The notes below the pieces were generated by a model. The model did not search any database. It saw nothing but the letters and a program-made list of their open reading frames with translations, and was not told the origin of the DNA. From Sipunculus nudus (lineage: Eukaryota; Annelida; Sipuncula; Golfingiida; Sipunculidae), in assembly GCA_026874595.1 (NCBI GenBank), contig CM049306.1, positions 91,712,642 through 91,776,641 on the forward strand: a stretch of DNA of 64,000 bases, given 5' to 3'. A program made the position numbers and the translations under genes. This document shows, one piece after another, positions 14,577-45,455 of the stretch; the stretch's first letter is position 1, and each line of letters begins with the position of its first letter.

Positions 14577-14684
14577 TTTGCTTTGCACTTTGAAAGATGC
14601 AAATATGTGCTCGTAACCGAAGGGTTACTAATTCGTTAGCCTGAAACATTCCGGCGATTTCGATCAGTTCATATTTAGCTGAAA

Positions 14685-19927: not shown

Positions 19928-20119
19928 ACCCTGGTGGTCAGAGCCAGAAAACCTTGTTAAACATGGCAGATGTAATAAACAAGGAGACCTAGGACGACGG
20001 CAGTATATATCCGTGCCATGAAGAGCATATCCCAGTGTGAGCTTTCATTATCACATCTACATAGAAAGACTTCTTCCAGAAGCGCTTTTCTCGCGCTTTT
20101 CTATTATCAAACAAATGAC
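19928..20119. repeat. Long-tail-type 3' flank, copy B
   Basis: Shared with 41940-42104 (3' of copy E) but absent from the short-tail copies A, C, D and F, which carry a different 3' flank. The AATAAA seen after E is not kept here: the equivalent site reads ATAATAGAA. Confidence 0.75.
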
Positions 20120-20392
20120 CTAAAAATCGAGTCCCAGGCAAAATAATCCCTCGGCCTTGGTCTTATCTGTGTCTGATGAGAGAACTGAATTAGGTCCATA
20201 AACACTGTCTTCATAAAGACCCTCTTCTGGGCCATGACGCTCGTCCGACTCTTGATTACCTGGGTTAATGTCTTGGTAGCCAAACGAGTCACATGACATG
20301 CGTCGTTCAACCGGGACCTGTGCACAAGACGCCATCTGACGCGTATACATGGCATTTGATACGCTTGGCGCGCTTCTTCGGCGGGTTTGCTT
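20120..20392 (-). other. Untranslated remainder of copy B tail, still open
   Basis: Directly after the TGA of copy B the same frame stays open for 90 more codons and ends at TAG 20120-20122. The encoded residues align with the cytoplasmic tail of copy E: basic start KQTRRR, then SVSNAMY, DSFGYQDI and a YEDSVY core. The C-terminal YLTL of E is not kept. A conserved open frame after one substitution suggests either a recent nonsense change, stop readthrough, or a sequencing error. Confidence 0.8.
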
Positions 20393-21697
20393 TCACTGCA
20401 CCGTTTTAGAACAACATATCCCGAAGAGGAAAAGGTTAGGAATAAAAAATAGCAGTGAGAGCATCCATGGAAGATGTGTTTTGAACCAGCTTCCCTGACA
20501 CGTGCGGGTTTCCAAATATTCCCGCTGAAAGTATTTAGAAGGATCGGTCTCATTTATGCGTATAAATGACGTCACCTGACTAATCATGTTTCTGGCGGTG
20601 CATGTGTAATTTCCTGCCTTATTCATCACTGCACTGACTGAGATAAACTTATCGTGTTGCCCATGATCATGAACTCTGCTGTAAGGTGTTATTAACGTGA
20701 CCTTTAATGCCGGAGCTCCAGAGGCTGAACATACCAAAATGGCGTCTTCCAGTATCTGTTGATGTATCACAGGAGATGAGCATTCGGGTAATCTCCCGTA
20801 CATGGTTAACATTTTATTGTCAATCACACGACATGCTGTCGGTATCTCCGATCTTATTTTATGCAGAAATGCATATCGGCAACTAACATCAGCAGGAAAT
20901 AAAGAGAAACCTGCAGTATCACATGCCCATTCGACCAATTTCCTTCGCTGGACATAGGAGTAAAATGAACTTCTCTTGCATTCACAGTAAATCGGATTAC
21001 CAACCACAGACAAGATTAAACGAATCGACGAGAAAGTCCGTGGGACATCGAAAGGGAGAAAAAGTCGGTTGTTCCTGAGATCCAAGAACTGAAGCTGGTC
21101 GAGGAATACATCACCAGAGAAGACACATCGGCTGATTTCATTATTCTTCAGAATCAAATGCTTCAGCTGTGTAAGACTGCTAAAGACATCGAAGGTAAGG
21201 TTTGTTAGTTTGTTGGCTGCTAGATTTAAAGATTCTAAAAATTTTGATCCATGGAAGGTAATATTCCTTACATGCCTTATCCCATTGTCAGTCATTAACA
21301 GTGTTTTTAAGCTCGGCAGCGAATTTATGACCATGTCCTCGTTGCTTCCCAGTAAATTATGGGATATATCCAATATGATAACATTATGGAAATCTACTCC
21401 AAGGTTCGAGATCTCGGTAACGTTATTATTTGAAACGTTGATGAAAATACCCATTGAAAATAATATTAAAATATCCTTCAGTGATGTTAGCATGTTATTG
21501 CTCAGAAAAACTGACGTAACATTCCTCCAAGCTGCGCTATGGGCAACAGACCGATCATCATTCAATCCGCGGTGCGTACAGTTAAATGTAGTTTCATTAT
21601 ATTGACATAGCTCATCCTTGAGTTTCCCGTGTAATCCCCGATTCCCAAACGTTACACTGGTATAAACTATAACTAAGGCCGTTGTATATAAATACAT
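20393..21697 (-). CDS. LRR-Ig transmembrane receptor, copy B (long-tail type, premature stop)
   Basis: A 434-residue single-exon receptor from ATG 21695-21697. Layout: signal peptide (1-18), LRR N-cap, LRRs (58-225), LRR C-cap with NPIYCECK (about 235-273), C2-type Ig (about 300-375) and a membrane span with MLSLLFFIPNLFLFGICC (about 411-428). It ends six residues later at TGA 20393-20395. Copy E has TGC (Cys) at that codon and continues, so a single base change truncates the tail here while the frame downstream remains open to 20120. The ectodomain is almost the same as copy A. The span, the juxtamembrane part (KYFQREYLE, RTCQGSWF) and the 3' flank match E. If translated as written, it is a receptor with almost no cytoplasmic part. 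Confidence 0.8.
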   Translation of the reverse strand: MYLYTTALVIVYTSVTFGNRGLHGKLKDELCQYNETTFNCTHRGLNDDRSVAHSAAWRNVTSVFLSNNMLTSLKDILILFSMGIFINVSNNNVTEISNLGVDFHNVIILDISHNLLGSNEDMVINSLPSLKTLLMTDNGIRHVRNITFHGSKFLESLNLAANKLTNLTFDVFSSLTQLKHLILKNNEISRCVFSGDVFLDQLQFLDLRNNRLFLPFDVPRTFSSIRLILSVVGNPIYCECKRSSFYSYVQRRKLVEWACDTAGFSLFPADVSCRYAFLHKIRSEIPTACRVIDNKMLTMYGRLPECSSPVIHQQILEDAILVCSASGAPALKVTLITPYSRVHDHGQHDKFISVSAVMNKAGNYTCTARNMISQVTSFIRINETDPSKYFQREYLETRTCQGSWFKTHLPWMLSLLFFIPNLFLFGICCSKTVQ

Positions 21698-23203
21698 TCT
21701 CAAGTATAAATGAACTGAACAGAATCGTCGGAAGCTGCTCTGGAATCAACAAATTGTAATCTGATGTATCCGATCACTTCATACATTACAGAATGCAAGG
21801 TTGTGACTACTACTTCTTTCCTGCCTGTCAGTTGAGCTTGCATTTCGTACAAAAATTAAAGGGCAGAAACAACCAACCATGGAGGACAATCAAAATATGT
21901 ACGTGAAACATAGCCAGAGGGGGACTCTGATCTTTCCAGATTTATCAAATAATACAACAATGTTTTCTGACAATACCTACTATATGAATAACCACTATTT
22001 TCATATATTACAGACGGTAACCACAACTCAAATAAGTCTGCTTTGTTTTAATTGTTAGGCTTATTGCTTTATATTGGCTTTCAAAGCAAAGGCATAAAAG
22101 AGGTCAAACGCATGGACATGTGTAAATTCACTATATTGCATCTATGCAGTTAATGAAAATTTTGTAAACAGTGGTTATACATAATAAAATCATAATAAGT
22201 TTGCTACCAACTAACACAATTAAGTAATTCAAATGTCTGTGGCTTGACCGCTCATCCATGTTTGTGCGGGTTCGTTAATTGGCCGGATTGACCTCGTATC
22301 TTTAGTATACCGAAGCCGGTTTTAGTTCACATGTGAGTTATATATAGCCATGTATGACGCGGCGTTCGTCCTCTGAGCGTCTGTCGTCCGGCTTTTTAAC
22401 AGCTTTTCTCAGCAATGCCGGGCGAAGTCTCGCCAAGGTTAACGCCCATATTGGGACTTCCTGTTGATTTTTTTGGCACATTTCTTAAAGAATTTATAGG
22501 CATTATTGTATATTTTATTTAAAACCTTTAGAAAATTGTACTTTTTTTCTTCTAGGATGGCTTGTTACGTTATCATAATGTAACAATCAAAGAATAAAGA
22601 AAGGTCTATCATAACCACAAATATCCCGGTCATAATGCATAATTTTGCATAAATTGATGCAACTGGGGATTCAGAACTGACACAAACAATAGTCTATCAA
22701 ATGAATGTTTGCCCATTGTTTGTGAGTTCAGTCTTATCCTATATATTTTGTCACCAGTTGTTGGGTTGATCCTTAAAAAAATTGAAATGTATTTATTTAG
22801 GTAAAGGTTGGCCAGAATGTTAATTTTTAGGACATGTAATCTAGTCCATTTAAGTATTTTCCTCTTGTAAAATCTGTATATACAGGCCTCTACTTGTCAC
22901 GGCTGCTAGTGACATGATTAATAATCCGGATATATGTGACCCAGCACGAAAGGAAAAACTCTGTGTCAGAAAGTAATAGGACAAGGTCACATATGAAGAT
23001 TATTCTCAATTTGGTTTTCATATGGTTAATTCCTGTTTAGAGTGTTTAAATTATTTTAAACTTCACCTCTATGTAAGTTACCAAGTGCTAAAGGTTAAAC
23101 ATGAATTTGGGATAAAAATATCAAGATCAAAAGTGGAGATAAACTTATGATTAGCTCCTGTTACGATTGATTTATTCGATTCAGTTTATGGATCTAATTC
23201 CTT

Positions 23204-24067
23204 TAGTAAAATACTAATATTTTACTCAACCGAATGACTGGTTGAGTTAAATATTACATCGGTGTTTCAAGACACTCTGGTCTGTTGAACATATGCAAGA
23301 ATATGGATACTTCTGAATATATAAAATATATTCCTTTATTTAAAAAACAGAAGTTGTTTGGAAGTTATGGTAGACCCCAAAATATCATTTGTAATTTTTT
23401 AACACTAATTGGATTATCTTTAAGCTGTTTTAAAGCTGTCTTTTTTATCTTTGATATTTCCTTTCTTCTTTTTAATTTGAATTTAATCTTGTTTTATTTA
23501 AAAAGATATCATTGCAACAATGGGCCTGACTTTTCAGTCAATTTTTTAAAAAGCATCTGACATCCCATGAATGGATTGTCCTAAGACATGATGTATGATC
23601 GGTTTCACAGCAAGAGACTTGTGGTGCCTCCTGCTCTTATGCCCATTTGTGTTGTTTTGCACATTTTATCTCTCCACCATTTCCTCATTTACAAAATGTA
23701 ATAACTTAATTAATTGAACTGATATTCTTAAAATTGTTCACATATGTTAATATAGGTAAGGAGGCAGAGCCCATTAAAAAGTTATCCTGAACTTAGAATG
23801 AGCGATCTTTACTTCCTGGTGGTGTATTTAGAGTAAAATCCATGTTAACATTTGTTAATATTCTTGGAAGCCCTTAATGGATCAGGATTATGAGGGGACC
23901 ACACCAAATCTATGCCAAGCTTCATGGGCCCATTCTGAGCTACCCTGGAAATAACATGGGATTTCGTTCATGATTGCGTGAGTTATGTTGTGAACAAAAA
24001 TGCACACACACGATCGGGAATGAACGCATATACCCTCCTGGCGGAGGCAATAATAAGGAATAACTAT
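23204..24067. mobile_element. Probable retroelement fragment inserted in the copy B flank
   Basis: The flanks of B and C run in parallel up to the word CTAATTCCTT (23193-23202) and resume at TTCGCCGAGAAAC (about 24069). The roughly 860 bp between is absent from C. It begins with small inverted repeats (GTAAAATA/TATTTTAC; ACTCAACC/GGTTGAGT) and ends GGCGGAGGCAATAATAA, a short-repeat end like those of some LINE or SINE 3' ends. An open frame at 23285-23560 is T-rich and not recognised. The insertion is seen; the retroelement reading is inference. Confidence 0.5.
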
Positions 24068-26889
24068 TTCTTCGCCGAGAAACGTCCCAACCCCGCTTTA
24101 TCATATATCACAAGATATGGAAACACACTGTTCGCATTTTGTTATTGAGCGGTAAATGATTAATACATTTCGTAATAATATTAATGATAGTTTATTTGAA
24201 ACACGTCCATATTTACACATCTTAAGTGTTGAGATTTTTTTTGCAACATGTTTTCACAAATATATCCGAAAAACGACTGACTGTTCTAAAATTTAAAGGA
24301 GTGTGTCATACAACCATGTGGCCGTTAATTCATACTAGTGTGTCCTTAGGATTTCATTTTAATTTAAAAGAGGATTGGTCCGTCCACAATAAAAACTACC
24401 ATTACAGGTAAACTAACCTCTTTAACGGAAGCCATGAGGTCAGGTGCTGATAGTAAACGTTGTGATTCATACTCAGTTTAAAAACTATTTCATGATTACC
24501 ATAACCATTGATTAATTTTAGTGCAGGCATTTGTTCTGTCCTACACTTACATTCCATTCATTTTAATATTTAAATGTATCAGCAAAATGCATATTCTTTG
24601 AGAAAATTAAGTACGAAGCCTACTTAAGTATTTACAGCTGCAATACGGTAATTTCTCCTGTATTTATAAATATACTGCTTTCTGTGGAAAACAGATTCGA
24701 CACAAGTGCTTAAACAGATTGTGCCTGTACAGTACACCACTGTTGTGAGGCTTGTTGAAATCTCATGCCGGTTGAGAGCCCCATACTGCCATCTAGTTTC
24801 TCAATTTGAACTAGATGGGTAAAATATTCAGCGAGTCATATTTAACAGTTATATGTGTGATTGTCAAATTATGAAGATTAAAAGTTAAAATATATGTACA
24901 TTTCTTGTTATAAGTTTGTTTACCATTGTCTTCTCATTGTATTATTATTATTTATCGTGTCATATGTTATGGTCAGTTGTCAGCGATGTTAACAAGTTGT
25001 TTGTTTGTAGCGATCGCCATCGTTAAGTGACTGCTGCAAGAGCCAGTTTTGAATATCCCGGTCCTACAGCTAAAAATTAGCGAGTCTACATGATATGACG
25101 CGAACCGAGCGTCCGAAAGGGATTTCGAGCGGGCCCGGACGCTTACCGCGAGTTATGAAAGTCTTGATATATGTACAACAAAGTTATCCCATGTTGTGCC
25201 AATATAATTATGAAATCCTTCACTATGTACCACAGACGTTTTCTTCTTGAGTATATTGACTCTACTTTGTTGATATATACGTAACTGCAAAGAGGGTTCC
25301 ACAGTTCTCTTCTTAAACAAGTGAATAGGACAGGGAAAAGTAAGAGGTATGGGTCATAAGTATGTTTATGAAATAATAATAGGTTCTATGTCAATTACCC
25401 ATTATATTTATTTTTTTATGAAGCAGTCTTAAAGATTGTTAATCGATACAAAAGACATCTGCAATTTTTGAGCAAAAGTTGCCGTTTTCGAAATATGTTT
25501 TAACAATTGTGGTATCTTCTCACTATTTATACTTTGAAAAAATTATAAAATGTCTCAACCCTTGTGCCAAGGCCAAGGGACATCAGTCCCAGGCAAACAT
25601 ACTTTTGGCAGCTATGGTCGGGTGACTTTTCATTGATGCACTTTTCATTGATGCCTTGCTGCTGCAGTAGAGCCTATATTTACTTTTGTCGGGCATACAT
25701 GCATCTGACGTGAATCATTGTTGTATGTAACAGTTCCTATATATATGTATACGCAGACCAAGATTTTCTTAAAAATAAAACAAAATGTTAGCGGTTAGGG
25801 TATTTGTTAAGGTTAAATATAATTTTGTTCTCATATTTCACCAGGTTGCACCATTTAAGATATTATATTTTAACATTGAAGTATTTTAGAGTATAAGCCT
25901 GCTAACGGACAGAATTTGGAAATTGAATCCACCTGCTTTCGGGTTCTGCCCACTTTTCATCCCTGAAGGAGGATAATTTCAGTTGAATCTAATCAAGATG
26001 TTAAAAACGAAATATCCATTAAAGTTTATTTAATCTTTTATTCAACACTAATCCAGAGGTGAGAGCCGAATTTGTTTACTGTATCTCTTTATTTACTTCT
26101 TTATGTTTAAGTGCGAGTAAACGGAAACGCTTGGATAAATTTAATTGAATTCATAATTTTTAGAAATCAAGCTGGAGGGATAGGTGTGTTGATCACTGTT
26201 TAAACGTAATAGAGAAGCTATTATAAGGTAGGTTTGTGTTTTCATAACCAATCCAATCAAGAACGGACCTCATGAAAATTTCAGGGCATTTAGGGTATGG
26301 GTGAAGGAAGAACTGGTTAGATTATTGTGTTGATCCGGCATCTGAGACGGCTTTTGGAGTGTCATCAAGGAATATTCACTTATGATGTCACTGATCTATA
26401 AATGAAATTTTCAGGGCATTTATGGAATGGGCTTATCACTAGTGTGTTTATGCTCATGCTTTGAGACCGTTCGGCGAGAATAAACATAGCTGCCATCGCG
26501 AGCAATCGACAGAGATCCTTTTTTAAACGTACTTCCACTATACTCCAATTGCAATTTACATTTTAATCAGAAATATTAACAAAGCTTATGTAAAACTTAT
26601 TATATAAACTTGTATTTCATTATAATATGATCTCGAATTTTGATATAACAACGCATGTCTACAATGCATTTCGATGGAGAACCCCCATGTCATGACCGTC
26701 GGCGGGGACCGCATGTCCCAGGGTTCACAGCGAGATTTTGACAGCAGTAGTCCTATTTCATCTGCTTTTTAATGTATGTAAATATCACCCTCCCATTTTA
26801 TATCCACGCGTCAAGGTACCTAGAAAGGCGCGCTCGTGAAGTCTGCAGAGCGCTTACCCTGGATGGAGGCCGACCGTGAAAAATCTCAA

Positions 26890-26965
26890 CGCCTCGGCGG
26901 TGATTCGAACTCACGATCTCCCGGCTTTGAGTCCCGTGCTCTACCCCAGAACCACAGAAGGCGAT
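26890..26965 (-). mobile_element. tRNA-like SINE head remnant
   Basis: On the minus strand the sequence has a tRNA-like layout: TGGTTCTGGGGTAGAGCACG (box A region), then GAGTTCGAATCACC (box B). A diverged copy is at 35389-35470 in the same position of the next block, so it was present before the duplication. It is not a functional tRNA: no matching acceptor stem was found. Confidence 0.55.
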
Positions 26966-27160
26966 AAGGAAGCCCTACTTCATAAACGCATTTTCGTGAT
27001 ATTTACCATTGATCATATTTTATTGGATCTGCAATCTCCAGGGCGTTGTTACATGAACACTTGTTACCAGTATATTCAAACTAATAGGGTTCCATATGCT
27101 TACAAGTCTCTGCCGGAATCTCTTTGTCAGACTTTCTGATGTACATGTTTCATGTGTAAT

Positions 27161-29882
27161 ACTGTAGCGCTTCAGTTCGCTTCGAGTGTCAGAACATACG
27201 CTTTCCCTAATACCTACGTTCAGGCGGCTTCTACAAGAGAACAATGAACGCATCCTCTGTTATAATTGAATATTAGAAATCAAAATATATGGTCATCATG
27301 GTCGCTTCCAAAATTTAATGGATTTTTCCCACGATGTAAGCCTAACCCAATGAAATTAATAAAATTCAATAACAAAATGAAATCCCTTTTATAATATTTT
27401 GCTCACGTTTGCTGATATACAAACCAACAAACCGAGACTAATGTTATTTCAATAGTCATAGAATGGGAAACGTTCGCTGATTCCTCGGATACATGTGAAC
27501 CTGCATTAGTCTTGGGTCGTAGTCAGTTTCTAGTAAAATTTGCTTATTCCATGACAATGAACAATGCTCCAGGACAAATATTTAATACTTTTGGAATCTG
27601 TTTATTTAATCCTGTCTTTTCACATGCGTACTGATACGTTGCCTATACGTTGCATACATATGATGCGTCTTTTAACATGCAAAAGACTACCCTCAACTGT
27701 CAGCTAAAGCATTATTTTTCATGCATCACTTAATACAGTATATCTTTCATATAGTTTCACTTTGCTCTAGTCATTCAAATTCTATAATGAATATTTTCAA
27801 TGCAGATGACCTCAATAAAAAATCTTTATACCTGCTTTATTATGTTATATCGTTGTTGATCATGTTTATAGGGGGAAATTTTCTCGCTCTATCTTCTTCA
27901 TTTGATTTTTATCAAAGCGCATTTCTTTGAGTAATCTCTTGAGTAGCATATTTTGCCATTCTTTATGGATTATTATTTATTTATAATTTTTAAGGGGGTA
28001 TTGGAGAATTCTAGCACATTTACAGACATGTTTTTAACTTATACTGTAAGTGAACTACAGGAAAAATCAATTCCCTGCGAATATCTCCGGATTAACATGT
28101 TAGACATTCAGTCACTACCAGGTCATTACAGGGCTGATTATCTAATAGAACCATGAATTTTTCACTGGTGCAGATATGCAGCTAGCACCATATAATCACA
28201 TGTTTTAATAGTTAATTATTATAAATATGTGCTCATAAATGAATAAATGACATAATTTTAGTGTTGTGTCAGGGTCCACAGAATTATCCAGTCCTTCTGA
28301 AGGATTTTTCTCTCGTTTATTTCTGTATTTGGTGGTTATCACTATGCCCCAATAGGAGAGTTCGTATATATACTAATTTTTAATCTGGACAAAGGATTGA
28401 ATAAAAACCCAAGCATCAGAGGAAACCAAACTGTAAAATATCATTATTTAATCAGAAGTGTATCGATAAACTAAAAAAGTGAGAAATTCCTGATCGTACA
28501 ACAATGCTTCATAGAACAAATGACCCCTGAATCATGACGCTCATGATATCTGACACTTTTTTACAACATTTCTTTACGCTTCCAAAGGATGTTAAACAAA
28601 ACTTGAACGAGATGTAAGAAATTAATTTATTCCATATGCGATTCTTTTAATATCACGGAAAGAGTGATCAATTGAAACATTTGACGGACCTAATGCAGAA
28701 ATGTATATGTCGAGAGTAGTAATTCCTGTCGAAGTCAGTCAATGTAAGAATATTATTTTCTCATAGGTAATGATGAAAATTTTCCAGTTAATACAAAAAC
28801 CTCATTCCAAAATAAAATAACATAACAACCGGTAGCAATATATTTTATTCACATGTAAGATATATCTAAGGTGAAATTTTAGAGTAAAAAACCGGCTTTT
28901 ATGGTTGATTAAGTCCCATACTTGCTACTCCGGTATGTGGCCACAGCCGGATTTACTGGGCCCGACCCCTCTGGGACAGACACCCCACTATAACGGATAA
29001 ATCATCCGTTCCATGACTGTCCGCCCCAGAGGGGTTTTTCTGTATGTCGATTTGATACACAATCTTTACTTTTTCGATTCAGTGCAAAATCTTTGATTTA
29101 CTGCCTAGAGCACTGACACAAAACTCATTTTCCAAATGCTAAAAACACGAAAACGCGCGCAACTTGAGGTTACACTGGCCTAATTCGTGGTAAACAAGAG
29201 GATTTAACAAGGACAGACATTGATGTTAAGATTGATGTTCCTTGGCTGAACGATTACAATCTTGCCCTGTTAAAAGATGGATGCCGAGAACGCTAGGACA
29301 GAAGAACAGACGAGAGACAAAGGATGAACGCTGTAGCTCAGAAGTCCTATGGTCAGCTGAACTAAGAACAGTGCAATATTTACATACTAATTATATGCGA
29401 TTTAACAATTAATTTGTGGAGGCATATCATAATACTACTCCTTCATGATTTTCTTGTGATCATATTTTAACAGACTACATACAAATATGCTACCTGTAAA
29501 CAAGAAATGCAAGTTAAATAAGTACATATTGCTCGTGAGAACTATTTTGCAGAAAGCTTCACACAAGGAATTCTCGTTTGCAGGTCCCCAGTATTCTTAA
29601 AAGTATTATTTAAGTTTGTGATTTGCTTTGACTGCCATAACTTTGCTTAGCAACAGTCTATCTGTTTTCATATTTACAGTCGTTTTGTGTACATATTGCC
29701 TATACTGTTAATTTAGAAGATAGCAACAAATATAAAACAGGGCTTGCAGCAGGACGTTACCAAATAAGGATTTCTAATTGTCCTAATGTATAGATTATTA
29801 ACTCCGTCACACAAGATATTTTAATTGGGTTTTATAATCACCGTGTTAGTAAGACACATGACCTTTTTACTATCCCTATTTT
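27161..29882. repeat. 3' flank of duplicated block (copy C)
   Basis: Collinear with 1-3833, including the opening words around GCTTCAGTTCGCTTCGAGTG and the hairpin at 28966-29034. Relative to the A flank it lacks the stretch about 1390-2440. No gene is seen. Confidence 0.8.
28966..29034. repeat. GC-rich hairpin (foldback) element
   Basis: Arms CCCCTCTGGGACAGACA and TGTCCGCCCCAGAGGGG with two mismatches around a loop of about 35 bases. Paralogue of 2843-2912. Confidence 0.6.
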
Positions 29883-31204
29883 TCAAAACAGTTTCGTACA
29901 AAACGTGATTAACATAAGACAAGGTACAACGCTGAAAATGGATACAACAGCAACATCTTGCATATAGAGCAAATGATGTGATCTTGAAACATGTCCACAT
30001 TTTTCCCGTAAACTACACATAGAGCATATTCTCTCTGAAATATTCTTAACATAAGATTTATCGACGATAATATTTGACGTCACCTGACCAATCATATTCC
30101 TTGCGGCGCATGTGTAATTTCCTGCCTTCTTCATCACTGCACTGACAGAGATATACTTATCGTGTTTCCCATAATCATAAACTCTGCTGTAAGGTGTTAT
30201 TAACGTGACCTTTAATGCCGGAGCTCCAGAGGCTGAACATACCAAAATCTCGTCTTCCAGAATCTGTTGATGTATCACAGGAGATGAGCATTCGGGTAAT
30301 CTCACGTACATGGTTAACATTTTATTGTCAATCACACGACATGTTGACGGTATCTCCGATCTTATTTCTTAAGAAATTTATATAGGCATTTAACATCAGC
30401 ATGAAGCGGTGAGACCCCTGTTGAATTACAACATGCCCATTCGACCAATTTCCTTTGTCTGACAAAAGAGTAAAATGATCTCTTGCATTCACAGTAAATC
30501 GGATTGCCAACCACAGACAAGATGAAACGAGTAGACGAGAAAGTCCGTGGAACATCGAAAGGGAGAAGAAGTCGGTTGTTCCTGAGATCCAAGAACTGAA
30601 GCTGATCGAGGGCAAAGTCTTCAGAAAATACACACTGGCTGATTTCATTATTCCTCAGAATTAAATACCTCAGCTGTGTAAGACTTCTAAAGACATCAGA
30701 ATGAAGATTTGTTAGTTTGTTGTTAGCTAGGTTTATAGAATTTAAAGATTTCAAACCATGAAAGGTAATATTCCTCACTTGTTTTATCCCATTTTCAGAA
30801 GCTATCAGTGTTTTCAAGCTAGGCAACGACTTAAAGACCATGTCCTCGTTGCTTCCCATTAAGTTATGGGATATATCCAGTAAGATAACATTCTGGAAAT
30901 TATTTTCAGGGTTCGAGATTTCGGTTATGTTATTATATGAAACGTTAAAGAAGCTCCCCATTGGAAACAATGTTAAAATATCCTCCAGTGATGTTAACAT
31001 ATTGTTGCTCTTGAAAACTGACGTGATATTCCTTCCCCCCACGCCGTTGGCGACAAACTGAATATCATGTAAGCCTCTGTACTTACAGTTAATTGTAGAT
31101 TCATTACATTGACACAGCTCATCCTTAAGGGTTCCGTGTAATCCCCGATTCCCAGACGTTACACTGGTATAAACTATAACTAATGCCGTTATATATAAAC
31201 ACAT
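29883..31204 (-). pseudogene. LRR-Ig receptor, copy C (one frameshift, short tail)
   Basis: From ATG 31202-31204 the frame runs through the signal peptide, N-cap (ELCQCNESTINC), LRRs and LRR C-cap (NPIYCECKRSF) to TAA at 30362-30364. There one base is missing compared with A and E, in the codons for FLQEI. The +1 frame then carries the whole Ig domain (Cys in EILVCSASG and NYTCAARN), the span and the short tail (FCTKLF) to TGA at 29883. Apart from this lesion the copy is well kept, so it is either a young pseudogene, a soluble truncated LRR protein of about 280 residues, or a sequencing error. The ectodomain is closest to E. The tail and 3' flank are closest to A and D. Confidence 0.85.
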
Positions 31205-34200
31205 TCTCAAGTATAGATGAACTGAACAGAATCGTCGGTAGCTGCTCTAGGTTAAACAAATGGCATTCTCATGTATACGATCAATTTATGCATTACATAA
31301 TGGAAGGCTGTGGCTACTACAAGTTACTTCTTTCCTGCCTTTCAGTTGGGCTTGCATCCCGTACAAAAATAAAAGGGCAGAAATAACCATATATGGAGGA
31401 CAATCAAAATATGTACGTGAATATAGCCAGAGGGAGTCTGATCTTTTCCAGATTCATCAAATAATAATAATGTTTTTTGACAATAACTTATATATGAAAA
31501 ACCACTATTTTCAAATAGACGGTAACCACAAAAAAAATAAAAAGTCAGTTTTGTTTTAATTGTTACGATGATTTTTTTTTTATATTTGCTTTCAAAGCAA
31601 AAGCATAAAAGACGTCAAACGCATGGTAACGTGTAAATTAATCATGTTGCATCCATGCAGTTAATGAAAAAATTTGTAAACAATGGTTATGCATAATACA
31701 ATGATAATAAGTTTGCTTCAAACAAATACAATAAAGTTATTCGTATGTATGTGGCTTGTTGACTCAACCACGTTTGAGGCCGGATTGGCCTCATACCTTT
31801 AGCAAATAGGTGTAAACAAACCGTATGCCTGTTTTAGCCTGTGTGAGTTATATAAAACCATGTTTGTCGCGACGTCTGTCGTCCGTCCGCCTTTTTAGCT
31901 GCTTTACTCAGCAATGCCGGGCGTAGTCTCGCAAAGTTTTAGATGTATATCGGGCCATACTGTTAATTTTTTTGGAACATTTTTTAAAAAATTTATATGC
32001 ACTTTTGTGTATTTATTTATAACCTTTAGAAAATTGTACTTTTTCTTCTAGGCTGGACTGTTACGTTATAATAGTGTAACAAACAAGGAATAAAGAAAGG
32101 TTGGTCATAACCACAAACATCCCCGTAATAATACAATGTTTGACGTAAATTGATGTAACTGTGGTTTCAGAACTGACACTAACAAAAGTCTATAATTGAA
32201 TGTTTGCCCTTCGTTTGTGAGTTCAGTCTCAAGCATAATATTTCATCGCCAGTGGTTGGGTTCATTTTCAAAACATATTATAAATATACTTATTTAGGTT
32301 AGGTGGGCCAATTGGTTATTTTTTATAACATATAGATAGGTATTTTAGCCCATTTGAGTATTTTGTTCTTGTATAATCTGTTTATACTAGGCATGTATTG
32401 CTTCATAATCCACATGAGTGTGACCCAGCATAAAAGGAAGAACTCTTTCAAGTGACAGAAGGTAAAGGTCAAGGTAACATATAAAGATTATTCTTTATTT
32501 GCTGATAATATGATAAAAATCCTGTTTAAATTTATATAAACTTCTCCTCTTTGTTAGTAACCAAGTACTTAAGGTAGCACATAATTTTTTAATAAAAATA
32601 TCAAGGTCAAAAGGCGATGTTATCTTCAGATTTGTAACCAAATGATTAGCTCCTGTTAGGATCGATTTATTCGAATTATTTTTTACATTTATGGATCTAA
32701 TTCCTTCGCAGAGAAACTTCTAACCCCGCATTATCATATATTACCAGATATGGATGCACACTGTTCGTATATGTCATTCTATTAATGATACATGGAGTTT
32801 ACATGAAACACGTCAACATTTACACTTCTTAAGTGTTCAGATTTTTTTTTGCAACGTGGTTTCACGAATATATTTGAAAAACGACTGACTATTCTACAAT
32901 TTATAGTAGTGTGTCATACAACGATATTGCCTCTTATTCTTACTAGTGTGCCAGGATTTGATTATAAGTTAAAAGAAGATTGGTCCATCGAGCGTACAAA
33001 CTACCAATACAGGTTATCTGTCCTCTTTAAAGGAACCCATGAGATCATGTTTTGATAGTAAACGTTGAGATTCATAATCAATTTAAGAACTATTTGATAT
33101 TTACCATAACCATTGATGAATTGTAGTGCAGGTATTTGTTCTGTCCTATACTTACATTCCAGTCATTTTAATACTAAAATGTATCAGTAAAATGCATATT
33201 CTTTGTGGAAATTAAGCACGAAGCCTACTAATGTCTTTACAGTTGTAATACGAAAATTACTCCTGTATTTATAAATGTACTGTTTTGTGGAAAATAAACA
33301 AGAATCAACTCAAGTTCATAAACAGATTGTGCCTGTACAGAATCCCACTGTTGTGAGGCTTCATGAAAAAAATGTTAGTGGTTTAGAGACGCATACTGCC
33401 ATCTAGTTTCTGCAATTTTAACCAGACGGGTAAAATATACCGCTGATCAGTGAGTCATATTTTATGTTTATAGAATGTTTAATTTTGAGGATTTAAAATT
33501 AAAAGAATATATATATTTCTTTTAGTTTATATACACTTTCCTTTTTTATATTTCTTATTTTTTCATCCCAAAAGGCATTTCGAGCCTCACGAACGCTTTC
33601 CTCGTGTTATGAAAGTCTTGGTGTATGTACAACACAGATATCCTATGTTTTGCCATTATGTTATTATAATCTTCCCTTTGTACAGCAGACGTTTTATTCA
33701 TCAACATTGAAATACATACGTAACTGATGTGCGTTACAAAGTTCTGACCTTTAGTTAGCAATAAAAGTGGATCTTTAAACACATCCTTCTGTAAATGTTT
33801 AAGGATGGGGAATTAATCTGGTAACTTTATAAAAATGTTTCTGCGGCAGTATTTCTGTCTATTTTTTTCTGATCTACTTAGTTATGGTCACACCACTTTG
33901 TTGATACATAAATAACCGCAAAGAGATTTCCACTTGAAAATTCTCTTCTTCAGCAAGGGAATAGGGCAGGGAAAAGTACAAATGCTTAGGTCATAAGTAT
34001 GTTTACGAAATAATGATAGGTTCTATTTTACTCACCCTTTATATTTAAATTTTTATCGTACAGTCTTAAAGATTGAAAGTTAATCGATGCAATAGATATC
34101 TGCATTTTTACGGCAAAATTTTCCATTTTTCCAATATAACAAATGGGTATTTCCTCATTATTTATACTTTGAAACAAATGATAAAATGTCTCACGCCCTC

Positions 34201-35669: not shown

Positions 35670-38600
35670 ACTGTTACGCATCAGTACGCTTCGAGTGTAA
35701 GAACAAACGCTGCCCTAATACCTACGTCAAGGCGGCTTCTTCCAGAGAACAAAGAAAGCAACATTTGTTAAAATTTTATATATATGATCATGATAACCTC
35801 CAAAATTAAATGGATTCTTCCAACGATGTTAGCCTAACCCTCAATAAAATTTGATAACAAAATAAAATCCATTTCATAATATTTTACTTACTTTTGCTAA
35901 TATAAAAAGAAACAAACCGAGAGTCATGTTATTTAGTCATAGTACAGGAAACGTTCGCTGATTCCACGGATATATGTGAACCTGCGTTAGTATAACGCGT
36001 AGATCGTAGTCAGTTTCTGGTAAAATTTACTTACTCCATCACAATCAACAATGCTCCGGGGACAAACAATTAATACTTTTGGAAACTGTTTATTTAATTC
36101 TGTCTTTTCACATGGATACTGATACGTTGCTCATGCGTTGCATCCACGTTGCATACATATGATGTGTCTGTTAACACGCCAAAGACTACACTCAACTGAC
36201 AGTTAAAACATTATTTTTCATGCTTCACTTTATACAATATATCTTTCATATACTTTCACTTTGCTCTTAGTTCACTTCAAATTCTTTATTGGATATTTTA
36301 AATTTAGATGTCCTCAATAAACAATCTTTATACCTGCTTTATTATGTTGTACCATAGTTGATTATGTTTATAGGGGGAAATGGTCGCTCTTTCTGCTACA
36401 TTTGATTTTTAACAAAACGCATTTCTTTGAGTAATCTCTTTAGTAGCATATTTTGCCATTCTGTGCGGATTATTATTTACTTATTCATTTTTTTCAAAGG
36501 GGGTATTGGAGAATTCTATCACATTAACAGATATGTTTTTTGCAGATACTGTAAGTGAACCACATGAAAAATAAATTCCCTGTGAATATCTCTGGATTAA
36601 CATGTTAGACATTCAGTCACTATCAGCTCATTACAGGACTGTTTATCTGATAGGACCATGGATTATGCTCTGGTGCAGGTAGCACTATATAATCACATGG
36701 TTTATTAGCTAATTATTATAAATATATGTTCATTAATGAATAAATGACATACTTTTGTTGCTGTGTCAGGGTCCACAGAATTATCCAGTCCATCTGAAGG
36801 ATTTATCTCTCGTTTATTTCTGTATTGAGTAGTTATCACTGTACCCCCTAGGAGAGTTCGTGTTAATACAAATTGTTAATCTTGACAAAGGACTGAATAA
36901 TCACCAAAGCATAAAAGGAAACCACATTGTTAAACATCATTATTTATGCAGAAGTGTATTGATGAATTGCAAAGCGAGAAATATCTCATCGTACAACAAT
37001 GCTTCATAGAACAAATAACCCCTGAGTCATGACGCTCAGCTGATGTCTGACACTGAGAAGTTATGTCAACTTAGATAGCAGTCAATTTGATATTTTTTCA
37101 GCTGTTTTTGTGGGAGTTGTGAAAAATTTATCAAACGGATTTCCCCAAATGTTCCATGGTGTAAGATACATATATGTGTAAATGATACATCTTTAAATTA
37201 TGTGCAATCCTATTTTTAAGTTTGAAAATGCGTAAATGTAAAAAGATGTACACTTGACAGGACTGTCCATGATCAATTAAATTACTGAATTACTGAAAGA
37301 TCCAAGCAATCATGACCGAGATATTTGATCTAAAGGAAGAAAATCAACCGTTGAAAATGTTAACATTTAGCAATTGTGTCCTCGACAATTCTGAAGCACT
37401 GACTTCGCCAATTTTCTTCATGTTTTGCAAGATAACAAAGTCATACGGTGAAACCTTGGGCTGCGGACACCCCTCTGGGGCGGACACCCCGCTTTTCAGG
37501 ACAACGGACACTTTTGTTCGCCCGATGGCTGTAATCAATACGGCTAAGGGAAACACAAGTGGCCACCCTGATCAAACTCGGGATAAATACTTTTGCAGAA
37601 ATTTATGCTTTTTAGTACGCCTTATATCAATTGAAATTTCCAATGATTTACGCATATTGCCATGACTATAAGACCGCAGGTTGTTTAACTCAATTTACCT
37701 TATTTTTCAGCTGGAACATTTATTTTTATCAATAGCAGTGCTCATAAAAAATGACGATATTCACGGAATTTCTATTGTTCCGAGGTCTCAGTGAAGCCGC
37801 ATATTCAATCTTAATTCGAGCCACATATTTCCATCATAGGCCCAGGAGCGAGGAAAATGACGTATCTGTTACACACCCGGACGATAGCAGTCACGGGTCA
37901 TTACCTCTCGCCTCGGTCGGGGAGGGGGATCAGCAATATCAACAAAACTCCGATCCTGTAATATTTGCTTAACGGAAAGTAGTCCTACCCATCAATCATA
38001 AGGTGTTTATTATATAATGCATTTTTATCATATTTCTTAAATATCGCTCCCGAAGGATGTTAAACAACACTTGAACGAGATGTCAGATATTAATTTATTC
38101 CATAAGCGATTCTTTTGATATCACGGAAAGAGTGATCAATTGAAAAAAATTTCGGACCCAGTGCAAAAATATATATGTCGAGAGTAGTTAAGTCCTGTCG
38201 AAGTCAGTCAATGCTAGAATATTATATTCTCACAAGTAATGATGATAATGTTCCAGTTAATATTGAAAACCTCATTTCAAAATAGAATAAATAAAACACA
38301 ATAACCGGTAGCAATAAATTGTATTCACATGTAAGATATATCTATGAAGAAATATTAGAGTAAAATTACCGGCTTTCATGGTTGATTAAGTCCCATTCTT
38401 GGTACTCCGGCATGTGGCCTCAGCCGGACTTCCTTGGCCTGACCCCTCTGTGGTGGACATCCCGCTATAACGGACAAATCATCCGGTCCCATGACCGCCC
38501 CCCTCCCCCCGAGGGGTTTCATTGTATGTCCAAATGACGCACAATGTTAAATTTTTCGGTTCAGTGCAAAATCTTTATTTTACTGCCGAGAGCTCTTACA

Positions 38601-39418
38601 CAAAGCTGATTTTTCAAATGCTAAAAACACAAAAACGCGCGCAACTCAAGGTCACACTGACCTAATTCGTGGTATCCAAGAGGATTAACCGAGGACAAAC
38701 TTTGATGTTAAGTAAGATGTTCCTTGGCTGAACGGTTATGATTTTGTCCCGTTCACAGAGAACGCTCGGACGGAAGGACAGACAAGAGACAAAGGGTGAA
38801 CGCTGTAGCTCAGAAGTCCTATGGTCAGCTGAACTAGGAACCGTGCAATATTTACCTACTTTAATAATATGCGATTTTGTCTTTTGTTGAAGCATATTAT
38901 AATGCTACGCGTTCATAATTTAATTTTCTTGTGATTATATTTCAAAAGGCTACATACAAATATGCTATATGTAAACAAGAAATACCTGCATTATTTGTAC
39001 AATATTTACTAAAAACAATCTTATAAGCTTACACTACCCCGTACTGATGTTATCAGTAAATATTTCTCGGAAAACTATGTTGCAGAAAACTACACACAAG
39101 GAATTCTTGTTTGCAGCTGCCCAGTATTCATAAAAGTATTATTACTTAAGTTTGTGATTAGCTTTGACTGGCATTATTTTGCTTAGCAACAGTCTATCTG
39201 TTGTCATATTTACAGTCGTTTTGTGTACTTATTGCCTATAATGTTAATTTAGAAGATATCATCAAATAAAAAACAGGGCTCGCAGCAGGACGTTACCAAA
39301 AGGGATTTCTAATTGTCCTAATGTATAAATTATTAACTCTGTCACACAAGATATTTTAATTGAGTATTTATAATCACCGTGTTAGTACCAGACATAACCT
39401 TTTTACCATCCCTATCTT
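35670..39418. repeat. 3' flank of duplicated block (copy D)
   Basis: Collinear with 1-3833, including the segment 1390-2440 that C lacks (matched at about 37030-38010). GC-rich GGCGGACAC words lie at about 37458-37530 and a hairpin at about 38440-38520. No gene is seen. Confidence 0.8.
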
Positions 39419-40731
39419 TCAAAACAGTTTCGTTCAAAACGTGATTAACATTAGACAAGGTTCAACGCTGAAAATGGATACAACAGCAACACGTTGCATA
39501 TAGAGCAAATGATGTGGTCTTGAAACATGTCGAAAGTTTTCCCGTGAACTACACATAGAGCATATTCTCTCTGAAATATTCTTAACATATGTTTTATTGA
39601 CGAAAAAAGTTGACGTTACCTGACCAAACATATTCCTTGCGGTGCATGCACAATTTCCTGCCTTCTTTAACACTGCACTGGCTGAGATATACTTATCGGG
39701 TTGCCAATAATCATGAACTCTGCTATAAGGTGTTATTAGCGTGACATTCATGCCCAAGCGCCAAAGCCTGAACATACCAAAATGCCTTTTTTTATTATCT
39801 GCTGATGTATCATAGGAGGTAAGCATTCAGGTAATGTCCCGTACATGGTTAACATTTTATTGTCAATCATACATGTTGTCGGTATCCCCGATCTTATTTC
39901 TTGCAGAAATATGTATAAACAATTAACATTAGCAGGAAATTGAGAGAAACCTGTTGGATTATCACATGCCCATTCGACCAATTTCCTTTGCTGGACAAAA
40001 GAGTAAAATGAATTTCGCTTGCATTCACAGTTAATCGGATCGCCAACCACTTACAAGATACGACGAGAAAGTCCTTGGAACATCGAAAGGGAGAAGAAGT
40101 CGGTTGTTCCGGAGCTCCAAGAACGGAAGGTTGTCGACGAATACATCTTCAGAGAAGAAACACTGGCTGAATTTATTATTCCTAAGAATCAAATACACCA
40201 GCTTTGTGAGACTGTTAAACACGTCGATATGAAGGTTTGTTTGATCGTTGCATGCAAGGTTTAAAGAGTGCAATGATTTTAAACCATGGAAAGTTATATT
40301 CCTCACCTGTGTGATCCCATTGTCGGAAAGTATCAGTGTTTTCAAGCTCGGCAATGAATTAAAGACCATGTCCTCGTTGCTTCCTATTAAATTATGGGAT
40401 ATATCCAACAGGATTACATTACGGTTATCAACTCAAAGGTTTGAGATCTAGGTTATGTTATTATTTGAAACGTTCATGAAGATACCCATAGGAAATATTG
40501 TTAAAGTATCCTTCGGTCATGTTAGCATATTAAAGCTCAAGAAAACTGACGTGATATTTCTTCCACCTACGACGTTGGCGACAAACTGAATGTCATGTAA
40601 TCCGCTGTACGTACAGTTAACTGTAGTTTCATTATATTGACACAGGCCATACTTAAGTGTCCTGTGTGATCCTCGATTTCAAGAAATTATACTTATATAA
40701 ACTAACAAGGAAGTCACAAATATATATACAT
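39419..40731 (-). pseudogene. LRR-Ig receptor, copy D (several lesions, short tail)
   Basis: The start codon survives at 40729-40731, but the signal-peptide and N-cap region carries changes. Stops interrupt the first LRRs (near 40520 and 40448). An open part (40408-40031) carries the later LRRs, with DISHNLIGSNEDM and LELRNNRLLLPFDV. It then shifts frame before GDPINCECKRNSF (C-cap) and again before the Ig half, whose second cysteine context reads GNCACTARN. The end has TGA just before the last residues. The ectodomain is nearer to C and E than to A and B. The span and 3' flank are of the short-tail type. Confidence 0.9.
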
Positions 40732-40974
40732 TTTTAAGTATAAATGAACTGAACAAAATCTTCGGTAGCTGCGCTAGTTTTAACAAATGGTAATATGTTT
40801 TATATTCGAACACGTCCTGTGTTAAACAATGCAACGCTGTGACTTTCCCTGCTTTCATTTTAGCTTGTATCCCGTACAAAGATAAAAGGGCAGAAATAAT
40901 CATACATGGAGGACAATTAAAATAAGTACGTAAACATTCTTATCTTTTACAGACTCATCAAATAACAGAACAAT

Positions 40975-41034
<60 letters not shown>

Positions 41035-41939
41035 CTAACCACTATTTTTCAGATAAACCAGACGATAACCAAAGCTTAAATAAAAACTCATATTTGTTTT
41101 ACTTGGTGATTAATTTGTATTGGCTTTCAAAGCAAAAAGCATAAACGGTGTCAAATGCCTCGAGTTATGTCAATTCATCAAATCGTATCGATGCAGTTTA
41201 TAAAATAATATTTGAAAAGAATGGTTATGCATAATATAATCATAATGAGTTTGCTTTCAACAAATACCTGAAAGTCTCTAATGTCTGTGGCCTGTTGACC
41301 CAACTCCGTTTGTGTGGGTACGTTAATTGGCCGGATTGACCTCATCAAAACCATGGTCAATTGGTTTTTTTTATAACCATGTACAACTTGCATGGTGATT
41401 GATTAACCTGTATAGGACACCCTGCATTCACCTGCACATAAACTATTTACATCTTCCCTGTGTAAATATAAATAATTTATACCTTTAACAAATAGGTGTA
41501 AATAAGCCGTAGGTCTGTGTCCACATGTGATTTATATAAGGCCATGCATGACGCGGCGTTCGGCCGCTGAACTTCTGTCGTCCGTCATTCTTCATTTTTA
41601 ATCTTTTCTCAGCAATCCCCGGGCGTAGTCTTGCAAGGGTTTGCACGTATATTCAACCATACTAGTTAAATTTGGTGGCAAATTTGAGGTAAATTGATGA
41701 AACTGGAGTTTAAGAACTGACACAAACAATAGTCTATAAAATGAATGTTTGCCCTTTGTTGGTTAATTCAGTCTCAACCAATATATTTTATCACCAGTGG
41801 TTAGGTTGATTCTCGAAATTCAAAATATATTTATTTAGGTAAAGGTTGGCCAGTTGGTTAATGTTTATAAAAATATATACAGGTATTTTAGTCCATTCAA
41901 GTATTTTTCTCTTGTCTGATCTGTATATTCAGGCCTATA
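40732..41939. repeat. 5' flank of copy D, truncated
   Basis: Parallel to the proximal part of the other 5' flanks but cut off near 41940, where the 3' flank of copy E begins. A junction between two blocks therefore lies here. It contains the (AT)n run at 40977-41032. No gene is seen. Confidence 0.7.
40977..41032. repeat. (AT)n microsatellite
   Basis: A pure AT dinucleotide run of more than 50 bases, absent at the equivalent place in the other 5' flanks. Confidence 0.95.
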
Positions 41940-42104
41940 GACCCAGAGAACTTTGTTATACATAGCATGGGACGACGGCAGTGTATATCCGCGGCATGAA
42001 GAGCATATCCCAGTGTGAACTTTCCTTATTACATCTACATAGTAAGATTACTTCCTGTAGCGCTTTTCTCGTGTTTTTATTTTTTCAAACATCGTGCAAA
42101 TGAC
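41940..42104. repeat. Long-tail-type 3' flank, copy E
   Basis: Matches 19928-20119 behind copy B (for example, a shared GAAGAGCATATCCCAGTGTG). It forms the 3' untranslated region of E plus a short flank before the truncated D block. Confidence 0.75.
42076..42081 (-). promoter_or_regulatory. Candidate poly(A) signal of copy E
   Basis: AATAAA on the minus strand, about 24 bases after the stop codon of copy E. The spacing is plausible. The equivalent place after copy B is altered. Confidence 0.4.
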
Positions 42105-43682
42105 CTAAATCTTAAGTGTCAGGTATGATGTTCCCTCGGCCTCAGTCCTTTCTATGTCTGACGAGAGAACTGCATTAGGCCTATAAACACTGTCTTCATA
42201 GATAATTTCTTCTGGGCCATGAAACTCGCCCGACTCTTGATTACCTGGGGTAATGTCTTGGTAGCCAAACGAGTCACGTGACATGGGTCGTTCAACCGGC
42301 ACCTGTGCACAGGGCGCCATCTGATGGCCATACATGGCATTTGATACGCTTGGCGCGCTTCTTCGACGGGTTTGCTTGCACTGCATTGTTTTAGAACAAC
42401 ATATCCCAAAGAGGAAAACATTAGGGATAAAAAACAACAGTGAGAGCATCCACGGAAGATGTGTTTGGAACCAGCTTCCCTGACATGTGCGGTTTTCTAA
42501 ATATTCCCGCTCAAAGTATTTAGAAAGATCGCTTTCATTAATTTGTATAATTGACGTCATCTGACCAATCATGTTTGTGGCGGTGCATGTATAATTACCT
42601 GCCTTCTTCATCACTGCACTGACTGAGATAAACTTACTGTATTCTCCATAATTGTAAACTCTGCTATTAGGTGTTTTTAACGTGACATTTAATGCCGGAG
42701 CTCCAGAGGCTGAACATACCATAATGGCGTCTTCCAGGTTTTGGTGATGTATGACAGGAGGTGAGCATTCAGGTAATGTCCCGAACATGTTTAACGTTTT
42801 ATTGTCAATAACACGACATGTTGTCGGTATATCCGATATTATTTCTTGCAGAAATGTATATCGGCAACTTACATCACCAGGAAATGGAGAGAAACCTGCA
42901 GTAACACATGTCCATTCGACCAATTTCTTTTGCTGGACAAAAGAGTAAAATCGACTTCTTTTGCACTCACAGTAAATCGGATTGCCTGCAAGAGACAAAA
43001 TGAAACGAGACGACGAGAAAGTCAGTGGAACATCGAAAGGGAGAAGAAGTCGGTTGTTCCTGAGATCCAAGAACTGAAGCTGATCGAGGGCTACGTCTTC
43101 AGAAAATACACACTGACTGATTTCATTATTCTTCAAAATTAAATACTTCAGCTGTGTAAGACTGCTAAATACATCAGAATGAAGATTTGTTACTTTGTTG
43201 TTGGCTAGGTTTAAAGAATTTAAAAATTTCAAACCATGAAAGGTAATATTCCTCAATTGTTTTATCCCGTTGTCAGAAATTATCAGTTTTTTTAAGCTAG
43301 GCAACGACTTGAAAACCATGTCCTCGTTGCTTCCCATTGAGTTATGGGATATATCCAGGAAGATAACATTCTGGAAATTATTTTCAGGGTTCGAGATTTC
43401 GGTCATGTTATTATATGAAACGTTGAAGAAGCTCCCCATTGGAAACAATGTTAAAATATCCTCCAGTGATGTTAACATATTGTTGCTCAGGAAAACTGAC
43501 GTGATATTCCTTCCACCCACGAAATTAGCGACAAAGTCAATATCATGTAATCCTATGTATTTACAGTTAACTGTAGATTCATTATATTGACACAGCTCAT
43601 CCTTAAGTGTTCCGTGTAATCCCCGATTCCCAAACGTTACACTGGTATAAACAATAACAAAAGCCGTTATATATAAATACAT
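42105..43682 (-). CDS. LRR-Ig transmembrane receptor, copy E (intact, long tyrosine tail)
   Basis: The longest intact member: 525 residues in one exon from ATG 43680-43682. Layout: signal peptide (1-18), LRR N-cap (Cys31, Cys40), about six LRRs (58-225), LRR C-cap NPIYCECK (Cys238, 240, 259, 273), C2-type Ig (Cys323, Cys366 in GNYTCTATN), stalk with EYLENRTCQGSW, and membrane span at about 410-429 (MLSLLFFIPNVFLFGICC). The cytoplasmic tail is about 96 residues, starting CKQTRRR. The tail has tyrosines in YQDI (474), YEDSVY (495, 500) and a C-terminal TSYLTL (520), which look like SH2-binding or ITIM/ITSM-like sites. That role is inference. An AATAAA follows 24 bases after the stop. The ectodomain is closest to copy C, the tail to copy B. 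It is likely a signalling cell-surface receptor; the ligand is unknown. Confidence 0.87.
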   Translation of the reverse strand: MYLYITAFVIVYTSVTFGNRGLHGTLKDELCQYNESTVNCKYIGLHDIDFVANFVGGRNITSVFLSNNMLTSLEDILTLFPMGSFFNVSYNNMTEISNPENNFQNVIFLDISHNSMGSNEDMVFKSLPSLKKLIISDNGIKQLRNITFHGLKFLNSLNLANNKVTNLHSDVFSSLTQLKYLILKNNEISQCVFSEDVALDQLQFLDLRNNRLLLPFDVPLTFSSSRFILSLAGNPIYCECKRSRFYSFVQQKKLVEWTCVTAGFSPFPGDVSCRYTFLQEIISDIPTTCRVIDNKTLNMFGTLPECSPPVIHHQNLEDAIMVCSASGAPALNVTLKTPNSRVYNYGEYSKFISVSAVMKKAGNYTCTATNMIGQMTSIIQINESDLSKYFEREYLENRTCQGSWFQTHLPWMLSLLFFIPNVFLFGICCSKTMQCKQTRRRSAPSVSNAMYGHQMAPCAQVPVERPMSRDSFGYQDITPGNQESGEFHGPEEIIYEDSVYRPNAVLSSDIERTEAEGTSYLTLKI

Positions 43683-45224: not shown

Positions 45225-45455
45225 GATGTCTTTTTTATATTGTTTGTTAACAAAATATTGCATGAAATACACATATACATAACAAAGCAATACATTATGA
45301 CCAAACATTACATGTCACCAATACATTCACAGTTAAACGATCACTGGACAGACAGTGACCATTACCAAAAAAATAAATAAACAATAAGGAATATAACATC
45401 TGTATTGGTACAACTCCCGATGTAAAATGCCCATAAATAAATAAATAAATATCTA

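Follow-up and report, generated by a model that had tools for sequence, protein, structure and literature searches.

Gene conversion between receptor genes with different signalling ends has been described in vertebrates. For SIGLEC11 and SIGLEC16 of primates, an inhibitory and an activating receptor, the account in PMC5701461 gives an ectodomain-coding region (including the exon of the binding domain) that is 97–99% alike, lower similarity in the rest and repeated conversion as the cause; it also states that humans often carry nonfunctional alleles of one of the two genes. In the CEACAM families, gene conversion and reciprocal recombination are invoked, and CEACAM3 is described as a decoy receptor (PMC2832619). 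Among invertebrates, induction by infection is reported for the crab receptor Lrig-1 (PMC11999971). Here we analyze a cluster of genes for receptors with leucine-rich repeats (LRRs) and an immunoglobulin (Ig) domain in the annelid Sipunculus nudus. The window, i.e. the whole analyzed stretch of 64,000 nucleotides, is C1:91712642-91776641 (contig C1 is CM049306.1 of assembly GCA_026874595.1). An earlier sequence-only reading had noticed that ectodomain and tail types are reassorted between the copies. This observation was confirmed and its interpretation was partly supported: interlocus gene conversion that copies patches of the LRRs and the adjoining LRRCT region across unrelated tail classes of a tandem receptor cluster is, in our judgement, the probable explanation.

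Receptor copies and their two C-termini

The window contains six copies of one LRR-Ig transmembrane receptor gene, of which A, B, C, D and E lie on the minus strand and the decayed G on the plus strand. When the LRRs of C were used as DNA query against the whole genome (1.43 Gb, 153 contigs), nine places were detected, all within C1:91.694-91.756 Mb (about 62 kb); they comprise the six window copies and H, I and J outside the window. Copy positions are window coordinates unless C1 is stated, and A-coordinates count downward from window base 5198 as position 1.

Copy A, 3834-5198 (listed part 3834..5156), minus strand: intact; A/B/H-type LRRs; short C-terminus, 4 residues past the best hydrophobic stretch
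Copy G, 14643..15903 (end approximate), plus strand: inverted, decayed; short-type 3′ end and flank; presumably copy F of the earlier reading
Copy B, 20107-21745 (listed part 20393..21697), minus strand: A/B/H-type LRRs; long-type membrane span
Long-tail remnant of B, 20120..20392, minus strand: frame open past the TGA
Copy C, 29883-31246 (listed part 29883..31204), minus strand: C/E-type LRRs; short C-terminus; pseudogene as assembled
Copy D, about 39419-40770, minus strand: own LRR type; short C-terminus; pseudogene
Copy E, 42105-43724 (listed part 42105..43682), minus strand: intact, 525 residues from Met; C/E-type LRRs; long tail with YQDI and YEDSVY
Copy H, C1:91704933-91706516, outside the window: intact, full-length, long tail
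Copies I and J, outside the window, inverted: I broken, J a fragment

The encoded protein consists of a hydrophobic leader, LRRs (Pfam LRR_8; about seven as counted by eye), an LRRCT-like cysteine cluster, one Ig domain and one hydrophobic C-terminal stretch. An LRR array with an Ig domain C-terminal to it on the same chain, the architecture of an LRR-Ig receptor, was detected by Pfam in E (LRR_8 E 1.7e-15, Ig_2 E 1.1e-6) and B (LRR_8 E 3.7e-19, Ig_2 E 2.4e-6); in A, LRR_8 scored E 3.8e-21 and Ig_2 reached 25 bits, slightly below the cut-off of 27. Signal peptide and single membrane span are putative since hydropathy alone indicates one N-terminal and one C-terminal hydrophobic stretch, and the short form may end in a glycosylphosphatidylinositol (GPI) signal instead. 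The sequences suggest that the coding part of each receptor gene lies in one exon.

Intact frames were found in A with its short C-terminus and in E and H with the long one. In copy B, a TGA (20393-20395) takes the place of the Cys codon of E and H, which leaves four residues past the hydrophobic stretch, the same as in A; this truncation looks recent because the frame stays open for 90 further codons. A one-base deletion or frameshift lies near 30365 in C, three frame changes between tblastn pieces as well as in-frame stops interrupt D, and G and I are broken. Thus, the proposal that all four combinations of two ectodomains and two tails occur is true of the DNA, but with C frameshifted and B carrying a TGA only A and E are intact inside the window.

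The C-termini fall into a short class (A, C, D and the inverted G and I) and a long class (B, E and H), in agreement with the tail grouping proposed before. The split lies directly past the TS codons (A 4026, B 20567, C 30075, D 39611, E 42552), and beyond it similarity of the two C-termini was not clear in DNA local alignments (p 0.026-0.82), in register (p 0.015-0.13) or at the protein level (p 0.024-0.64), as the described divergence past TS had it. A deep homology of the two tails, considered on account of their faintly alike first residues, was rejected as shuffles gave no firm support. The diagnostic Ig wording is real as well: B reads DKFISVS and E SKFISVS, whereas A reads DKYFSVS, C DKYISVS and D DKYISAS.

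The tails could also be alternative terminal exons available to every copy. A donor-like CAGGT at the junction of B, C and D would fit this, as would the fact that the next downstream gene on the same strand bears the other tail for A (H), C (B) and E (D), into which one gene may be spliced. However, CAGGT is missing at the junction of the intact copies A and E, and the frames of A, B, E and H continue across the junction uninterrupted. Moreover, a genome-wide search with both C-termini revealed no free-standing tail exon: the long C-terminus occurred at B, E and H only, the short one rose above noise at A, C, D and I only (other matches to either, E 0.14 or worse, were noise), and each tail was continuous with its own gene. 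Alternative exons are therefore highly improbable.

Mosaic ectodomains and probable gene conversion

Identity between copies changes along the gene. In sliding windows, A and B are 95-100% identical in nine of ten windows over positions 25-1021, the tenth (625-724) reaching 88%; from -799 to 24 their identity is 74-91%, falling to 55% in the outermost one. For C and E it is 88-96% over 125-724 and 80-87% over 725-1121. Copy H resembles A and B over 259-708 (91-99%; 95-99% to A over 259-633) and C over 709-930 (96-99%), and it is 91 and 97% identical to B and 93 and 73% to E in the final two windows, which lead up to and over the junction. A and H thus carry the same LRR type on opposite tails, but their LRRCT regions differ, that of H being C-like. 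Within the A/B tract, differences cluster at window positions 4476-4575 (A-coordinates 624-723), many of them private to A; this cluster is possibly a patch from an unsampled donor.

Trees of separate gene parts, which had been suggested as a check, gave conflicting groupings. For the five copies A-E, ((A,B),D,(C,E)) was the only one of 15 topologies to survive in 125-725 (approximately unbiased (AU) test, 1; the other 14 rejected). The proposed ectodomain pairs A+B and C+E therefore stand; H joins A+B, and D represents a third LRR type closer to C+E than to A+B in positions 120-700. In 725-925, ((A,B),E,(C,D)) was best and three topologies were not rejected, and the 5′ flank and 925-1177 were poorly resolved (10 of 15 topologies not rejected in each). 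With H as sixth copy, the grouping was B+H in the 5′ flank (100%), C+E in the LRRs (120-700; 100%), C+H in the LRRCT region (709-930; 100%), B+C in 931-1080 (82%) and B+E+H in 1081-1177 (98%). LRR and tail groupings reject each other: the tail clade B+E+H was rejected for the LRR data (AU 1.8e-7) and also for the LRRCT data, while the LRR clades A+B+H and C+E were rejected for 1081-1177 (AU 0.005 and 0.013).

Shared fragments were tested by 2000 permutations for each of the 15 pairs among A-E and H (threshold 0.05/15; G, I and J were excluded as decayed or partial). Seven pairs passed: A/B (13-1003, 0/2000), A/C (913-1159, 2/2000), A/H (236-635, 0/2000), B/C (913-1140, 1/2000), B/H (340-624, 0/2000), C/E (241-364, 6/2000) and C/H (643-915, 0/2000). 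Except for A/C and B/H, these pairs link a short-tail with a long-tail copy (5/7). Maximum chi-squared scans, the second kind of recombination test, were significant in 8 of 10 triplets (0/2000 permutations each) and not significant in the two with D as recombinant (773/2000 and 1008/2000). The A/B tract extends from -43 to 1003 with B as recombinant, and up to -127 to 1148 with A tested against B and E. If C is taken as the recombinant, the C/E tract covers 89-693 or 114-696; if E is, C-like sequence spans -481 to 785 (against C and B).

A/B tract, A side, 4196..5242, minus strand: A-coordinates about -43 to 1003
A/B tract, B side, 20737..21783, minus strand: 5′ end approximate (gaps)
C/E tract, C side, 30554..31158, minus strand: A-coordinates 89-693, C as recombinant; left end uncertain
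C/E tract, E side, 43032..43636, minus strand: left end uncertain

The A/B tract represents a near-identical ectodomain on different C-termini, and it is bounded on both sides like the C/H tract, as expected of conversion tracts. A switch inside the Ig domain, as first read, fits B; the affinity of C and E, by contrast, already ends at about 700-785, in the LRR/LRRCT region. In 913-1159, C is close to A and B.

The sequence-only reading had left the choice between gene conversion and unequal crossing-over, and it had assigned the 3′ flanks to the same two forms as the tails. This holds for A, C, D and G, which have several gapped kilobases of 3′ flank in common. For B and E, similarity extends only about 140 bp past the stop region; B and H share more, because the inverted tail-to-tail pairs B-G (window 14643-21745) and H-I (C1 about 91.699-91.707 Mb) seem to have arisen by duplication of a single block.

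Short-type C-terminus and proximal 3′ flank of A, 3462..4025, minus strand: common to C, D and G
Long-type C-terminus and short shared 3′ flank of E, 41970..42551, minus strand: matched at B and H

For the short-class tail and proximal 3′ flank, the relations of A, C, D and G were unresolved, none of three topologies being rejected. The shared 3′ end of E (41970) nearly touches the duplicated 5′ flank of D (about 41939), so E and D form a tight tandem long-short pair. Upstream, the flank of E is interrupted by about 5 kb (45200-50200) that contain a reverse transcriptase fragment at 46463-46975; the part at 50.2-51.1 kb matches flanks of other copies.

Unequal crossing-over in the Ig domain could have swapped whole 3′ ends, tail and 3′ flank together, with conversion as a later, secondary event. 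The kilobases of 3′ flank that travel with the tail in A, C, D and G, the abrupt appearance of the tail clade at 1081-1177 and a 5′ flank compatible with A+B+H are in line with this scenario. Yet it predicts one breakpoint per recombinant, whereas the tracts A/B and C/H each have two. In addition, the sister pairs A+B and C+H are rejected by the 5′ flank (AU 0.001 for either). Crossing-over as the leading event consequently appears unlikely, and gene conversion is the better fit. An assembly artefact, i.e. chimeric joins or collapsed haplotypes, might be suspected because the window contains two nearly perfect tandem duplications at other sites (145 bp, 100%; 227 bp, 99%). The tracts, however, bear their own scattered differences and several different ends, the contig measures about 111 Mb, and a like mosaic exists in H outside the window, all of which makes an artefact very improbable.

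In the explanation by conversion, the long class (B, E, H) keeps what would be an ancestral signalling tail, with a constrained span, a YxDI-type motif and a second tyrosine cluster, and the short class (A, C, D, G, I) carries an unrelated hydrophobic C-terminus, with all copies but A broken. Conversion, mainly of the non-crossover type, would repeatedly copy LRR and LRRCT patches between copies, across tail classes too, and would reach no further than the point in the Ig domain where homology ends. This boundary would need no special device, since the ectodomains are homologous and the C-termini are not.

Constraint, tail motifs and age of the LRR types

In the long class, the 57 membrane-proximal codons are constrained, with ratios of nonsynonymous to synonymous divergence (dN/dS) of 0.17-0.21 (one-sided p 0.0016, 0.0099 and 0.0035). 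For the short C-terminus constraint was not detected (dN/dS A/C 0.93, A/D 0.84, C/D 1.97; few sites). Pairwise values in the LRRs gave no sign of positive selection: all ten comparisons within A-E fell at 0.29-0.44 over 124-723. Values of 1.0-1.4 occurred in shorter segments for some of the pairs that include the broken copy D. LRR branch values were 0.36 for B (p 0.12) and 0.47 for H (p 0.08). Differences between LRR types were not significantly enriched on the concave face in any of six pairs; for A/E, they affected 9/35 exposed strand sites vs 27/118 others (p 0.82).

The tails of E and H contain YQDI and then YEDSVY. A canonical immunoreceptor tyrosine-based activation motif (ITAM) has two YxxL/I 6-12 residues apart. 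In E, YQDI and YEDS are separated by 17 residues, too long a spacing for a canonical ITAM, and a canonical form of its inhibitory counterpart (ITIM) is not present either, as judged by eye against the consensus motifs. Judged in the same way, the end of E, TSYLTLKI, is a near-miss to an ITIM or the related switch motif (ITSM); B and H lack it.

More distant relatives, at about 25-37% identity, were represented by at least 82 matches with fragments and the copies themselves counted, many on C1 and C9; this is a lower bound, as 80 of 705 candidates were scored. A large LRR-Ig-like family is located at C1 90.88-91.76 Mb, at C9 13.3-13.9 and 56.5-57.9 Mb, and on C3, C13, C14 and C17, and many of the fetched members are long open frames whose tails contain tyrosines. 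One scan of viral contigs yielded no relatives. The set of 24 loci L007-L030 includes a fragment of copy C (L014), five loci without a long frame in a scripted search, three with an internal stop (L009, L012 and L023) and 15 that are stop-free. Thirteen of these 15 extend at least 25 residues past the best hydrophobic stretch. The pattern Yx[DE][VILM] was present in 10 of the 13 tails vs 1.09 expected from shuffled tails (0/2000 shuffles), a p value that is optimistic as the pattern was picked after viewing the tails and L028 and L030 are nearly alike; the looser Yxx[VILM] was found in 11 of 13 vs 6.95 expected (p 0.013). Sequence searches on their own gave no relative of the long tail other than B, E and H. 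This tail is likely to be the ancestral tail of the larger LRR-Ig family and would signal via its tyrosines. The ectodomain is probably the ligand-binding half. A clean exchange of recognition and signalling halves, as first proposed, is too neat for several tracts with different ends; "signalling" is plausible for the long tail and unsupported for the short one.

A functional paired system like those of mammals, in which selection would keep one ectodomain on two receptors, a long one that signals and a short one that does not or that couples to an adaptor, draws on A and H, both intact and 95-99% alike over 259-633, and on the LRRs of A (dN/dS 0.37, p 0.048). Moreover, two of the 15 frame-intact distant relatives likewise end 2-3 residues past the hydrophobic stretch (one frame having only 363 residues). 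Paired receptors should be constrained at both ends; here the long span is constrained and the short C-terminus of A, C and D is not. Furthermore, the short copies besides A are broken, the long tail of B is truncated, and A and H differ in the LRRCT region. Adaptor coupling is not evident from the spans, which are uncharged in A, C and I, with a Glu in D. A selected pair thus seems rather unlikely. A, the sole intact short copy, would act at most as a tail-less binder or decoy. A working decoy/signalling pair of A and H is possible: the intact, weakly constrained LRRs of A speak for it; against it stand the lack of constraint on the short C-terminus and the decayed state of the remaining short copies.

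Silent divergence suggests that the LRR types differ in age from the copies bearing them. In the LRRs it amounts to 0.09 for A/B and 0.13 for C/E, and it reaches 0.46-0.52 (bootstrap 0.33-0.74) in the four comparisons of an A/B-type with a C/E-type copy. The same cross-type pairs differ by 0.17-0.21 (0.13-0.26) in the 5′ flank and by 0.06-0.21 in the Ig part; among A, B, C and E, 5′ flank divergence is 0.15-0.21. The LRR types look older than the flanks of their copies, for which there would be two routes: conversion with more distant relatives as donors, or retention from a time before the present flanks had spread. LRR divergence above flank divergence is a testable sign of imported or long-kept recognition variants. 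That conversion shuttles a pool of older LRR types between a chassis with a tyrosine-motif signalling tail and a tail-less decoy chassis, as a recognition/decoy pair kept by selection outside the vertebrates, is a doubtful, speculative extension.

Besides the late choice of the tyrosine pattern, several points weigh against our interpretation. Since the 5′ flank rejects neither A+B+H nor B+E+H, part of the pattern may go back to older crossing-over. Of the C/E tract only the right end is firm, the left end shifting with the copy treated as recombinant. The long tail proper has dN/dS values of 0.37-0.66, with p 0.03 for B/H and 0.20 and 0.27 for the other two pairs. The weak purifying selection on the A-branch LRRs fits poorly with a dead copy. 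Slower evolution of the flanks, a weaker alternative, could partly account for the LRR excess.

Elsewhere in the window, tandem duplications at 53618-53909 (145 bp, 100% alike) and 47654-48108 (227 bp, 99% alike) are recent or assembly-born. Open reading frames at 53330-54125 (minus strand) resemble a fragment of a G protein-coupled receptor, with only a weak Pfam match (7TM_GPCR_Srsx, E 0.12). A second reverse transcriptase fragment (RVT_1, E 5.6e-19) at 58169-58810 (minus strand) belongs to a LINE-like element. No tRNAs or Rfam families were found in the window.

Comparison with known receptor families

Titles and abstract beginnings of open-licence papers contained, among the matches listed, no account of this locus or of such conversion in invertebrate LRR-Ig genes. 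The cluster suggests that, beyond the well-studied receptor families of vertebrates, recognition domains in a tandem array can be uncoupled from signalling ends by conversion, and with nine copies in about 62 kb it is a compact locus in which length, boundary and direction of conversion tracts are measurable.

Recombination among copies occurs in the Hydractinia Alr, sea urchin Sp185/333 and Biomphalaria FREP clusters. These are likewise described as diverse invertebrate recognition gene clusters, with diversification by repeats for the Sp185/333 genes, but they belong to protein families other than LRR-Ig. Lrig proteins have more LRRs than the window receptors and three Ig domains. The LRRIG/Lrig-like surface receptors described from invertebrates share the LRR plus Ig architecture (PMC11999971); the comparison concerns architecture only.

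The window pattern appears to resemble the conversion reported for CEACAM and, very closely, SIGLEC11/16 genes. CEACAM1 and its ITAM-bearing relatives are also described as an expanding family, which differs in its Ig-V binding domain and its ITIM and ITAM motifs, whereas here a YxDI-type motif alone is present and function is putative (PMC2832619). SIGLEC11 and SIGLEC16 are multi-exon Ig lectins, in contrast to LRR-Ig genes known from sequence alone whose tails have no clear similarity. As far as they are described, the SIGLEC pair and the window genes nevertheless have in common a near-identical ectodomain region, attributed to conversion, within otherwise more diverged receptors with different ends.

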